Source: Polyangiaceae bacterium (lineage in GTDB: Bacteria > Myxococcota_A > Polyangia > Polyangiales > Polyangiaceae). Taken from it: a stretch of 64,000 bases of DNA. The position numbers were made by a program, and so were the translations under genes. This document shows positions 22,269-57,434 of this stretch, in pieces (the first letter of the stretch is position 1; each line of letters begins with the position of its first letter). The notes under the pieces are model-generated. The model searched no databases. It was not told the origin of the DNA and saw nothing but the letters and a program-made list of their open reading frames with translations. The stretch lies in assembly GCA_016929495.1 (NCBI GenBank), contig JAFGIS010000187.1, positions 1 through 64,000 on the forward strand, in the 5' to 3' direction.

Positions 22269-22666
22269 ATGATCGCGGACCGCAATCAGCTGGTCGACAC
22301 GCTCAGGGCCAAGGCGATCCTGCTGCTTCGGCGCGAGCGAGAGCTGCTCGAGCTGCGAGCGCAACTCAAGCGCTCCAATTCACAGCTCGACGCGAGCCTG
22401 CGAGAGCTGCGCGACACCCAGGATGGACTGATCCAGTCGGCTCGCGTCATGGCCGAGGTGGCCCGCCGCGCAGGCATGGCGGACATCGCATGGGGAAATT
22501 TCACGACCCGACCTCACGGGCACGGATTCGGTTTGCACACCGGTGCTCTGGCCGCCCAGGAACTCGGCGGCTGTCTGAGCTGCACGAGTCCGGGGGTTGG
22601 GGGCAGGGCGCGACCTTCGTGCTCAAGCTGCCGCAGACCGACGGGCCCAGGGGTCTACCGGGCTGA
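22269..22666 (+). pseudogene. Decayed sensor histidine kinase (internal deletion plus frameshift)
   Basis: From ATG 22269 a coiled-coil of the kind preceding the histidine box is read (KRSNSQLDASLRELRDTQDG, then MAEVARRAGMADIA). In myxobacterial kinases this runs into the phospho-accepting His segment. Here it jumps straight to the last HATPase motif HGHGFGLHTGALAAQELGG, so the His region and most of the ATPase domain are missing. After ELGG the match continues only in another frame (LSELHESGGWGQGATFVLKLP, stop at 22666). The pair of lesions indicates a pseudogene; a sequencing error could explain the frameshift but not the deletion. Confidence 0.75.
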
Positions 22667-22761: not shown

Positions 22762-23235
22762 ATGCGCGGTGGCTATTTGGCAGTCGTCTTGGTCATGTTC
22801 ACCTCCGCTTGCGGAGGGGCCCAGAAGGGGGCGGACAGCGCCTCCAACCAACCGAGAACCGAGGGTCAGAGATGCTTGGAGGACGCGGAGACGCCGCGTG
22901 AACCCAAGCCGGACGCCCCGAGGAGCATTGCGGTCTCGCAGATCCTGGTGAGGCATGCCGGGCTCAAACGTCCGGAAGGCGCCACTCGGACGGCGGAGCA
23001 GGCTTGCCTCCGAGCGCTGAAGGCGCTCAATGCGCTCAAGTCGGGCGCGTCTTGGGAAGACGTCGTCAAGGAGTACAGCGACGCGCCGGGGACCGGCGAC
23101 GGCTCGCTCGGCCGCATCAAAGCCGACGACGTGGACCCGGCGTTTTCCGACGCCGCTTTTGCTCTGGACGTGGATGAGCTCAGCTACGTCGTGAAGACCG
23201 ACCGAGGCTTCCACATTATTCTGCGTCGGGATTGA
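22762..23235 (+). CDS. PpiC/parvulin-type peptidyl-prolyl isomerase lipoprotein
   Basis: 157 aa. The signal ends VMFTSACGG, a lipobox. From residue about 53 it reads SIAVSQILVRHAG, then FSDAAFALDVDELSYVVKTDRGFHIILRRD, the classic parvulin pattern (ILVRHA, G-DGSLG, FS-AAF-L, T-GFHII). It would assist folding of exported proteins at the outer face of the periplasm. It is a single-domain version, without the SurA/PrsA chaperone arms. Confidence 0.92.
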   Translation: MRGGYLAVVLVMFTSACGGAQKGADSASNQPRTEGQRCLEDAETPREPKPDAPRSIAVSQILVRHAGLKRPEGATRTAEQACLRALKALNALKSGASWEDVVKEYSDAPGTGDGSLGRIKADDVDPAFSDAAFALDVDELSYVVKTDRGFHIILRRD

Positions 23236-23732
23236 CGCCGCGAACCGCAGCGCCCGGTGCCCTGGAAGTTCGGTGATTGGGCTCTGGGCGTCTGTTTCTC
23301 GTATTCTGCACCGCCGGCGGTCGTCGGGTAGCCGCAGTCCGGCCCCATGACGAGCAACACCCCTCGGGCGAACGTTGCGACCCAGGCGCGGCGATACAGA
23401 CGAATTTCAACCTCCTTCGAAGCGCTGCGGCATCGTCGACCCACGGAGCACGAAGTGGACCAGCCCGCCCACCGCTCCAAGTTCGGAGTTTCCTTGCTAC
23501 AGTGGTGTGTTCAGCGCCCGCGCTGAACACTCGGTGAACACACGCTGAACAGGCTCGTTGCGGCCGCCGGCCGCCCCATGGCAGGCTCAGAGTTGGCCCC
23601 GACGAACGAAGGCCCCTGCGGTGGCGGCGTGCGTCTTTCCGCGACGACCGGCCCACGGTCCCGGGCTGATCTCGAAGCCCTCTCAGCAGGTAAGTGGGCA
23701 AGAGCCGCGGACTGTGGCAGCCCGGGCCATCC
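23236..23732. other. Intergenic region with an operator-like repeat cluster
   Basis: Only small ORFs without features are found between the parvulin gene and the membrane protein gene. The notable content is the TGTTCA/TGAACA cluster at 23507-23551, listed separately. The next gene may start at GTG 23694 or ATG 23733. Confidence 0.6.
23507..23551. promoter_or_regulatory. Phased TGAACA repeat cluster, candidate operator
   Basis: Perfect 11-base inverted arms (GTGTTCAGCGC at 23507 and GCGCTGAACAC at 23520) are separated by two bases. TGAACA recurs at 23524, 23535 and 23546, exactly 11 bases apart, so three copies face the same side of the helix. It lies about 150-200 bases before the next start codon. 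A dimeric or oligomeric repressor or activator site is inferred; no regulator is known. Confidence 0.55.
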
Positions 23733-25565
23733 ATGACCCCAGAGCGAGCAGCACCCTCCCCTGGCGCGGCAGCCGGCGGCTCGGCGGAAGCCGCGTGCCG
23801 ATGGCTCGCGTTCGGGGTGCCGCTGCTCGTCACGGCGACTCGGGTCCCACTGAGCCCGCAGTGGCGTGACGATGTACCTGTCTTGCGTGGGCTCGGGGGC
23901 GTGCCTCTGGGCCCGCAGGGCACCCTGTCGAGCGTGCTGATTCAGGCGGTCAGCCTGGTCCCCCTGGCCGGCAGGCTCATGCGTGCAGCGTGGGTGAGCG
24001 GGCTGGGCGTCGCGCTCTCGGCCCTGGCTCTGTACTTCATCATCCGACGACTGCTCGATGCGAATGCGTGGACGCCCACACTCAGTCCAGCATTGGCCCT
24101 GGCTGGGGCGTTGCTTGCAGCGTTGAGCCCCTGCTGGCAGCTCGAAGGCGTGGCCATTGGAGGCGCGTCCGTGGCCTGTGCGGTCGTTCTGCTGGCGCTT
24201 CTTCCCGGCCAGGCTGCGCCGGCGAACGACGCTCGACTGTGGCTCGTGCGTGGCGCGCTCGTGGGACTCGCGTGCGGCGAGAGCGTCGTGGCTGGTCTCG
24301 CGCTGGTGGCTTCGCTCGGCGCTCGCGTCGCTTTGCTCAGAGAGGCCCTGCCGCGGCGGTTCGTGTTGTTGTTTTTCGGTAGTGCGGCGGTCGTCCTGGG
24401 CCTGTGCGCTTTGCCCTGGCTCTTGGGTCCGTCGGACCAAACGGCTTGGTTCGGGTTGTTGGGCGTGACGCGAAGGGGTCTGGCTTCGCTCGACAGCCTG
24501 CAGACGGGTCGCCCGTCGGCGGCGGCTGCATGGCTCGCGGAGGTCGGCCTGTTCGCTGCCGTGCTCGCAGGTGGGGGCGCTCTGTGGGGCACGCTCCGCA
24601 CGGCGACTCGGCGACTTTTCGTACCGCTCTTGGTGTTCGTCGCGGCCGATGTTGCCTTTCCCGTCCGAGGGCCGAACGAGCTGTTCGTCGACGTGCTGAC
24701 GCCGCTGCGTCTGCTTGGCGTCACGTCGCTGGCGGTCGCGGCGAGTTTGGGAGTACATACGCTTTCACTCGCGCTGCGCCGGGCGCAGTTGCCATTGGCC
24801 GAGTCGGCGAGCGTCCTGTTCGTGGTTCTGTTCGCGACGATGGTGCTCGTGACCTCGGAAGATGCCGGCGTGCTGACTCGGCGCCATGACCGTATGGCGG
24901 CAGAGGCGTGGACCGACGAAGCGCTGGCCGCGCTTCCTCCGCGCAGTCTCCTGCTTGCCCGCAGTCCAGCGCTCATTTGGCGATTGTGGGCTGCGCGCGT
25001 CGTCCGAGGCGAGCGACCGGACTTGGTGCTCGTCCCGGCACCGGTGCTCGGCCGTAGCGGCCTGGCACAGCCCCTTCTGCAACGCGAGCCGGAGCTGGTC
25101 GCGCTCGTTCGCGAGACGGCCATGAACGGAAGTCCCGGAGAGTACGCGCTCAGCACGCTCGCGGATGCGCGCCCGCTGTACGTCGAGCTCGACCCGAGTT
25201 GGGATCGGCGTCTCTATGATCAGTTGGTGCCGGGTACCCTCTGGCTCGGCGTCGCGCCTCACGCACTGGGACGGTCCGACCGCAGAGCGGCACTCGAGGG
25301 TGGACGGGACTCGTTTCGACGAATCGTGAGAGTGGCCGGGGACCCTCAGCATCTCGATCCGGCGACCCTCGGAGTGCTGGCCGCGCGCGCTCGGGAGCAG
25401 GCTCTCGTTCTGGCGGCGCTCGGCGACCGCAAGCTGCTGAGCGGTCTGCTCGACGAACTCGACAGCATCGACCCAGGCAACTCCTTCTCGAAGGAGCTCC
25501 GCAGGCGCCTCGGCAAGCGCACCCGCGGGGCCGTCGACGTCACTGGGCTTCTCGAGCAGCTGTGA
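23733..25565 (+). CDS. Polytopic membrane protein, DUF2723/TMEM260-like
   Basis: About 610 aa from ATG 23733 (GTG at 23694 is an alternative). About ten hydrophobic segments occupy residues 30-390. The first reads CRWLAFGVPLLVTATRVP and the loop after it RWRDD-like (SPQWRDDVPVLRGLGG). A soluble C-terminal domain follows with PRSLLLARSPALIWRLWAARVVRGERPD. The pattern resembles DUF2723 (TMEM260-type glycosyltransferase C-like) membrane proteins, in which the first loop carries an acidic catalytic motif. A glycosyltransferase role is possible, not shown. Confidence 0.6.
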   Translation: MTPERAAPSPGAAAGGSAEAACRWLAFGVPLLVTATRVPLSPQWRDDVPVLRGLGGVPLGPQGTLSSVLIQAVSLVPLAGRLMRAAWVSGLGVALSALALYFIIRRLLDANAWTPTLSPALALAGALLAALSPCWQLEGVAIGGASVACAVVLLALLPGQAAPANDARLWLVRGALVGLACGESVVAGLALVASLGARVALLREALPRRFVLLFFGSAAVVLGLCALPWLLGPSDQTAWFGLLGVTRRGLASLDSLQTGRPSAAAAWLAEVGLFAAVLAGGGALWGTLRTATRRLFVPLLVFVAADVAFPVRGPNELFVDVLTPLRLLGVTSLAVAASLGVHTLSLALRRAQLPLAESASVLFVVLFATMVLVTSEDAGVLTRRHDRMAAEAWTDEALAALPPRSLLLARSPALIWRLWAARVVRGERPDLVLVPAPVLGRSGLAQPLLQREPELVALVRETAMNGSPGEYALSTLADARPLYVELDPSWDRRLYDQLVPGTLWLGVAPHALGRSDRRAALEGGRDSFRRIVRVAGDPQHLDPATLGVLAARAREQALVLAALGDRKLLSGLLDELDSIDPGNSFSKELRRRLGKRTRGAVDVTGLLEQL

Positions 25566-37809: not shown

Positions 37810-38460
37810 CTAGCCTTCGGGCAGCGCACCTGCGCGGTCGAGCAGCGCCTCTGCGATACCGTCCCGATACCGACGAAGTGCCTGGAGATCCAGCGGGGCG
37901 ATCAGTCCGAGGAGGGGACGGACTTCGATCTGGCGCATTGCCCAGGCAAGCCAGGCGAGGTCGACCCCGGCGTCCTTCTGCATGGCATCGTCTATCCCCT
38001 CGAGCAAAGGCCAGCCTTCCCGTTCGAGACAGAAGAGATCAACCAGATCGCGCAGCTCCGATCGACCGAGCAACGTCACGATCTTGTTGGCCCGTTGGTC
38101 CCGCAGTGACAGCACCCGGATGCCCTCAACCGTCGGACACTCCGCGTCGAGCAAAGGGGCGGCATCCGCAGCTACGTCGAGCCGTACCAAGTCGGCGGCC
38201 GAAGCCACCTCGATGCGCCGAAACGTCGGAGCGATCCTGACCGTAGCGAGCGCCGCACCTTCTGCCCTCGCGGCCGCCTCGAGTCGTGAGACGACAATCG
38301 GAATATCGCTGCCCGACTCGCAGAACAGGTCTATGTCCTCGGAGATGCGATGCCCCAGCAGCGTGCCCAATCCTGCCCCGCCGACCAAACGCACAGTTGG
38401 CAGGTCCTCTTGCGCGGCGAGCACGAGAAGCCGGGCGAGCCTAGGAAGCTGCCCTGACAT
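37810..38460 (-). CDS. AbiEii/AbiGii-type nucleotidyltransferase (toxin-like)
   Basis: 216 aa from ATG 38460. The nucleotidyltransferase signature VRLVGGAGLGTLLGHRISEDIDLF contains the Gly-Gly and SEDIDLF metal-binding aspartates. Later segments ECPTVEGIRVLSLRDQRANKIVTLLGRSELRDLVDLFCL follow the DUF1814/AbiEii order. Such proteins act as toxins of phage-abortive TA systems. Its start lies inside the upstream gene (overlap of 20 bases), so the pair is co-translated, but the upstream gene is not a recognised AbiEi antitoxin. Confidence 0.8.
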   Translation of the reverse strand: MSGQLPRLARLLVLAAQEDLPTVRLVGGAGLGTLLGHRISEDIDLFCESGSDIPIVVSRLEAAARAEGAALATVRIAPTFRRIEVASAADLVRLDVAADAAPLLDAECPTVEGIRVLSLRDQRANKIVTLLGRSELRDLVDLFCLEREGWPLLEGIDDAMQKDAGVDLAWLAWAMRQIEVRPLLGLIAPLDLQALRRYRDGIAEALLDRAGALPEG

Positions 38461-38758
38461 GGTACTCGTGGCGATTCTTGAGCAATTCCCACACAGGACG
38501 GGCACGCCCCAGCCGATGCTCGATCCGGGCCCATGCTTCGTCGATCTGGTCCCACGAGGCAAACAGCCAGACGTCTCGACTGTTCGCCTCGCGCAACAGC
38601 CGAACCAAGATCTCGTCGCGTTCGGGGCCGGCAGGACCAGCCAGGATGCGCCTTGCTTCGGCCACCGTTTGCCTCGTGTCCCAGAGAAAATAGGGAACCG
38701 CTCCAGGGTCGAGCAGACGCGGGCTGGTTGGAGGCAGCATAGGTGTACAGACTACCAC
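38441..38758 (-). CDS. Partner gene of the AbiEii-like protein
   Basis: 105 aa. It is acidic/basic mixed with a segment WDTRQTVAEARRILAGPAGP and another REANSRDVWLFASWDQIDEAW, predicted helical. No DNA-binding winged-helix motif typical of AbiEi is seen. Position and 20-base overlap with the toxin-like gene suggest a cognate antitoxin or accessory protein. The start may be the Met seven residues in (MLPPTSPRLLDP). Confidence 0.65.
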   Translation of the reverse strand: MVVCTPMLPPTSPRLLDPGAVPYFLWDTRQTVAEARRILAGPAGPERDEILVRLLREANSRDVWLFASWDQIDEAWARIEHRLGRARPVWELLKNRHEYHVRAAS

Positions 38759-56745: not shown

Positions 56746-57174
56746 TCAGCCCAGCGGATTGACCCACCGGAGCCCCGGGAACCGCGCGAAGTCGGAATCA
56801 TTGGAATGGAGCTCTGCCTGATGCTCGATGGCGATGGCCGCCAAGTGCGTGTCCGTCGTCAGGCTCCCGCCGACTCCGGTGGCTCGAAAGAGCTCCTCCA
56901 GGATCGCCAGATGTCGAGGCCCAGGCTCGACAATGCGGACTTCCGGCTGGTCGAGCCAGCGCCCTACGCGCGCCAACGCGTCGAGCGGTGCCAGGGGGTT
57001 CTGCAGGACCGAGGGGTGCGTCACGAGTCTGACGAACCCAAGAGCGACCGCCCAGGCAAGCCCCACCGGCTGCTGACGCGTGATCAGGTCCTCCCACCAC
57101 CGTCGTGCGTGCAGATGCAGCGGAGCGGCCTTGTTGTGCGCGTAGACGAGCAGGTTCACGTCGACGATGATCAT
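56746..57174 (-). CDS. PIN-domain toxin, VapC-like
   Basis: 142 aa. PIN-domain acidic residues are in MIIVDVNLLVYAHN (Asp), LAWAVALGFVRLVTHP (Glu-position neighbourhood is AVAL-GF, so the second acid is unclear), TTDTHLAAIAIEH (Asp) and LHSNDSDFARFPGLRW (Asp). It is the size of VapC ribonuclease toxins that cut RNA. The start overlaps the antitoxin stop by four bases (ATGA), the usual VapBC arrangement. Confidence 0.85.
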   Translation of the reverse strand: MIIVDVNLLVYAHNKAAPLHLHARRWWEDLITRQQPVGLAWAVALGFVRLVTHPSVLQNPLAPLDALARVGRWLDQPEVRIVEPGPRHLAILEELFRATGVGGSLTTDTHLAAIAIEHQAELHSNDSDFARFPGLRWVNPLG

Positions 57175-57434
57175 CGGCCAGTCCCGATGCGGCTCCGGTC
57201 GACTTCCAGATCATCGACCAGCTGATTGAGCCGAAGCGGATCGACGCCAGGCCGAAACGGACTCTCGAACGTGTCCGCCCGGAAGGGCTCCCTGCGCGGC
57301 TGGCGGTGCGTCTGAGCGGAAAGGCCGCGCCGCAGCGTGTCGTTCAGCACCTTGCGGAACGACGTGCGCTGCTTGTGCGCCATCTGCTGCAGTTTCTCGG
57401 CGAGGTCGTCATCGAGCGCCACGGTGGTACGCAC
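57171..57434 (-). CDS. VapB-like ribbon-helix-helix antitoxin
   Basis: 87 aa. The N terminus MRTTVALDDDLAEKLQQMAHKQRTSFRKVLNDTLRRGL is a classic ribbon-helix-helix: a short strand and two helices that would bind the operon's operator as a dimer. The tail (RREPFRADTFESPFRPGVDPLRL) should wrap the toxin. Immediately followed by the PIN toxin gene. Autoregulation is expected from the family. Confidence 0.88.
   Translation of the reverse strand: MRTTVALDDDLAEKLQQMAHKQRTSFRKVLNDTLRRGLSAQTHRQPRREPFRADTFESPFRPGVDPLRLNQLVDDLEVDRSRIGTGR

Follow-up and report, generated by a model that had tools for sequence, protein, structure and literature searches.

A phased TGAACA cluster in a Polyangiaceae genome as a candidate operator private to its lineage

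Do the phased TGAACA hexamers that lie between two genes of a Polyangiaceae bacterium form an operator, or are they a tandem repeat that no protein reads? The hexamers occupy positions 23507-23551 of the 64,000-nucleotide stretch of DNA analysed here (the window), in a 458-base gap between the gene for a PpiC-type peptidylprolyl isomerase and the gene for a membrane protein, with the following features.

Anatomy and setting of the cluster

22762..23235, + strand: upstream gene, PpiC-type peptidylprolyl isomerase, 157 aa
23507..23517, + strand: left arm of the inverted repeat, GTGTTCAGCGC, containing TGTTCA at 23508-23513 (read directly and by inverted-repeat search)
23519..23529, + strand: direct repeat 1, CGCGCTGAACA (hexamer 23524-23529)
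23520..23530, + strand: right arm of the inverted repeat, GCGCTGAACAC (read directly and by inverted-repeat search)
23530..23540, + strand: direct repeat 2, CTCGGTGAACA (hexamer 23535-23540)
23541..23551, + strand: direct repeat 3, CACGCTGAACA (hexamer 23546-23551)
23694..25565, + strand: downstream gene, for a 623-aa membrane protein that belongs to no known family, a possible target (start uncertain, GTG at 23694 or ATG at 23734)

Direct reading bore out two structural claims of the first-pass annotation, namely that TGAACA occurs three times on the + strand with starts at 23524, 23535 and 23546, exactly 11 bases apart, and that positions 23507-23530 make up a perfect inverted repeat whose 11-base arms flank a CC centre (GTGTTCAGCGC CC GCGCTGAACAC). 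After 23530, the letters run TCGG TGAACA CACGC TGAACA. The repeat unit is longer than the hexamer: CNCGSTGAACA is present in three tandem copies at 23519-23551, and a fourth copy, CGCTGAACA inverted at 23508-23516, reads GGCGCTGAACA. Consistent with this, CGSTGAACA occurs four times in the window, each time within the cluster. The same annotation had called the cluster operator-like on account of same-face phasing. The 11-bp phasing does agree with a known head-to-tail design, that of CarH and of the PhoB class, but it does not account for the inverted arm, which is a feature apart.

We also examined what else the gap might encode. Its codon-position composition showed no clear codon bias across the cluster, and a hidden coding gene was rejected on that ground. 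An intrinsic terminator was rejected because none was recognised in the gap, and a structured RNA was rejected on a fold z-score of -0.84 and the lack of a credible Rfam match. No sigma-70-type promoter was recognised in the gap, and no regulator gene was recognised adjoining the cluster. By eye, a weak extended -10-like element, TGCTACAGT, can be seen at 23495-23503 without a -35 element. Upstream of the isomerase gene, at 22270-22660 on the + strand, there are histidine-kinase-like coding remnants in shifted frames (a coiled-coil part and a GHGFGLHTG-like box), likewise seen by eye, in which Pfam found nothing. Farther away, the minus strand carries an AbiEii-like nucleotidyltransferase gene (37810-38562) and a PIN-domain gene with a small overlapping upstream gene (56746-57434), which looks like a VapBC-type pair.

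Rarity, repetition and conservation

The cluster is the window's only case of a hexamer repeated three times with a constant spacing (7-25) outside the multiples of 3. Sixty order-3 simulations of the window produced no phased hexamer triplet at a spacing of 10 or 11, and over all spacings of 7-25 the simulated expectation was 0.43 triplets per window. The hexamer itself is mildly over-represented, with 23 copies in the whole window versus 15.4 +/- 3.8 expected. In the 9.56-Mb genome the exact TGAACA triplet is found at this single site, and when up to 3 mismatches were allowed genome-wide the only further matches were an overlapping pair within a single promoter of contig C244.

The inverted repeat, taken alone, is unremarkable for the window's composition, since perfect inverted repeats with arms of at least 11 and a centre of at most 10 bases are expected at 0.6 per window, and three are present. 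This bears on a reading in which a dimeric repressor (TetR-like or similar) has the 24-bp inverted repeat as its operator, with the two remaining TGAACA copies serving as additional half-sites or being present incidentally. Its perfect 11-base arms, 2-base centre and uniqueness in the genome at up to 2 mismatches would suit such an operator, but the rate expected by chance does not favour it, the genome offers no second site within 2 mismatches and one at 3 mismatches, no dimeric regulator gene was recognised nearby, and the dyad leaves the 11-bp phasing unexplained. We consider a dyad operator decidedly unlikely.

A stronger contender is a neutral, imperfect 11-bp tandem repeat, read by no protein and lying beside a chance inverted repeat. 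The three full units agree in 9 of 11 columns (C-CG-S-TGAACA), as they would after local duplication, inverted repeats this good are expected by chance, and among the 56 small tandem-repeat rows that TRF reports for the window is one at 23521-23551 (period 11, 2.8 copies). Pure slippage is disfavoured, however, because the hexamer is perfect in all four copies, one of them inverted, while the adjoining bases and spacers vary; the period of one helical turn and the intergenic position also argue against neutrality.

To place the cluster among its counterparts, we scanned one genome per species, 84,980 species in all, for exact triplets, and found at least 80 loci, which were classed from the matches listed. 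Among the 80 listed triplets, 34 are near-identical tandem repeats, 20 have an inverted arm, nearly all of them belonging to one Bacteroidales-type interspersed repeat, and 26 have diverged spacers; the first two classes, 54 of the 80, lend support to the neutral reading. The Bacteroidales repeat (L172, L177, L189, L222 and others, in MAG RGIG3262 and its kin) has the form TGTTCA-N9-TGAACA-N5-TGAACA-N5-TGAACA and is interspersed over many contigs, in several cases no more than 50 bases from a contig end. The cluster resembles it in having an inverted copy ahead of three direct ones spaced by 11 bp, but differs in its gap (10 bases rather than 9), its spacers and its phylum, and is single copy in its genome whereas the Bacteroidales copies lie on many contigs.

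Some of the listed triplets lie near gene starts, among them sites beside phoD in Rhodococcus (L239), resA in Paenibacillus (L197, L198), qoxA in Anoxybacillus (L232) and a Na/Pi cotransporter gene (L248). OmpR-class regulators would be expected to target such genes, with PhoP and ResD as the readers, which speaks for the operator reading; the triplets beside phoD, resA and qoxA look like response-regulator boxes. Near the listed triplets there was no detectable homologue of the two carH-like proteins discussed below. A related arrangement, TGTACA-N5-TGTACA-N5-TGTACA, is common to two related species with one base changed (L027, G028 C13:92759; L028, G037 C30:16466) and is a candidate operator conserved between species.

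Conservation of the motif upstream of orthologues had been proposed in the first-pass annotation as the test that could refute its reading, and such conservation proved absent at the checked orthologues of both neighbours. The other 107 genomes of the family lack the triplet, whether exact or with one mismatch. In 32 of 39 genomes the membrane protein has homologues, and at the loci examined no TGAACA cluster was found upstream of these or near orthologues of the upstream isomerase. In a scan of named genomes, no close relative of the membrane protein turned up. The nearest orthologues are proteins of only about 50-58% identity from other genera, and because of this distance a true operator may have been lost through turnover. 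The lack of conservation, of a recognised promoter and of sibling sites nonetheless favours a neutral repeat, which we regard as a substantial possibility.

Candidate readers of the cluster

CarH is a MerR-type B12 photoreceptor repressor, which binds its operators in darkness together with adenosylcobalamin and lets go of them in the light. CarH operators consist of tandem 11-bp repeats nnnnTnnACAn (PMC9304148), and the cluster comprises three tandem repeats of exactly this form. Three successive TnnACA repeats occur at two sites in the genome, the cluster and the promoter of a carH-like gene on contig C244, and in none of the shuffles of the window. The TnnACA form is automatic once TGAACA is repeated three times. 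The C244 site is a divergent promoter between a fasciclin gene and the gene for a MerR and B12-binding regulator, whose best NCBIfam model is CarH at a score below that model's cut-off. Directly before the fasciclin start lie four tandem 11-bp repeats (TGATCA, TGAACA, TGTACA and TGAACA; L002:1490-1528, G000 contig C244), likely a true CarH operator of this genome, and two of these repeats are exactly the hexamer of the cluster. Among relatives, TnnACA arrays were found at 12 of 29 carH-like loci versus 0.02 in simulated sequence, and the nnnnTnnACAn rule therefore holds in this family. The second of the genome's two carH-like genes, on contig C638 (L054, G000), is 73% identical to the first and adjoins an amine-oxidase/desaturase-like gene; its promoter is without TnnACA arrays and has repeated TTTCATTTGAAA-like inverted repeats, and the locus has a weak CarH-profile match near position 68.

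In a CarH profile of the family, the cluster scored 16.0 bits, the 13 real sites all scoring higher (21-39), and its spacers were at random level. Scores of at least 14 arise in unrelated loci about 50 times per genome, an estimate based on two matches, and the full score of the cluster is not significant genome-wide. Given the low score, the random-level spacers and the frequency of chance scores, the match to CarH is one of the hexamers alone. Unlike CarH/CarA operators, the cluster has GC-rich spacers without the family CarH signature, an inverted fourth copy and no recognised overlapping promoter; nor was it found to overlap a promoter belonging to a carH, carotenoid or light-related gene, its neighbours being the isomerase and the membrane protein. 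It is quite unlikely that the cluster would be a second CarH-type operator, distant from both carH-like genes and from known light genes, that puts the membrane protein under B12/light control.

The Streptomyces PHO box is made up of 11-nt direct repeat units GTTCACC-N4 (PMC4415409). On its minus strand the cluster reads GTTCAGC-N4-GTTCACC-N4-GTTCAGC, near that box and with the middle unit identical to it, and like PHO and other OmpR/PhoB-class boxes it consists of 11-nt direct repeats arranged head to tail, with identical triplets standing beside phoD, resA and qoxA elsewhere. Even so, we hold it very improbable that the organism's own PhoB/PhoP reads the cluster as a PHO box. In this genome the pstS promoter has TGTCG-N6-TGTCA, a few relatives have TGTCA at 11 bp, and the core looks like TGTCA, not TGTTCA. 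The cluster core differs from this TGTCA type, in what is a thin comparison, since the pstS-promoter repeats are weak in their own right, with 4 of 26 loci falling within 2 mismatches.

Finally, a LexA (SOS) box array was considered. GAAC-N7-GAAC in the cluster is similar to the LexA box of alphaproteobacteria, the family's LexA boxes, which read roughly ACRCCYGTTCAGTA, have GTTCAG as their core, and one site lies within 2 mismatches of the myxobacterial LexA motif CTRHAMRYBYGTTCAGS. In a profile built from 21 lexA promoters of the family, however, the cluster reached at most 0.0 bits compared to 17.9-28.2 for true boxes, which refutes such an array at the sequence level and leaves it a vanishingly small chance. 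At the lexA genes of the family (L059, L090-L118), the box ACRCCYGTTCAGTA is conserved some 21 bases ahead of the start codon and makes a tight site of LexA self-regulation.

Preferred reading and its meaning

From the observed sequence, its phasing, its genome-wide rarity and its intergenic position, we tentatively favour a short operator, intergenic and peculiar to this lineage, a candidate regulator site for which we infer protein binding, cooperativity, a target gene and a class of regulator. The three 11-bp direct repeats would present three TGAACA recognition hexamers along the same helical face, where cooperative, head-to-tail binding by a winged-helix regulator could take place. The fourth hexamer, which is mirrored, might provide a dyad contact or take up one more subunit, and the downstream membrane-protein gene would be the one whose transcription the cluster controls. 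As for the reader, an OmpR/PhoB-class response regulator is conceivable if unlikely, and the MerR-type B12 photoreceptor CarH is a less likely candidate again. An unconserved operator of a known kind is thus our leading reading of the cluster, and a neutral tandem repeat is almost as likely.

If the cluster is neutral, 11-bp phasing alone is weak evidence of an operator, about two-thirds of the listed triplets elsewhere being tandem or interspersed repeats. If CarH binds it, the B12-light regulon of the group would be extended to an uncharacterised membrane protein, and if a response regulator reads it, the cluster would provide a first target for an orphan system.
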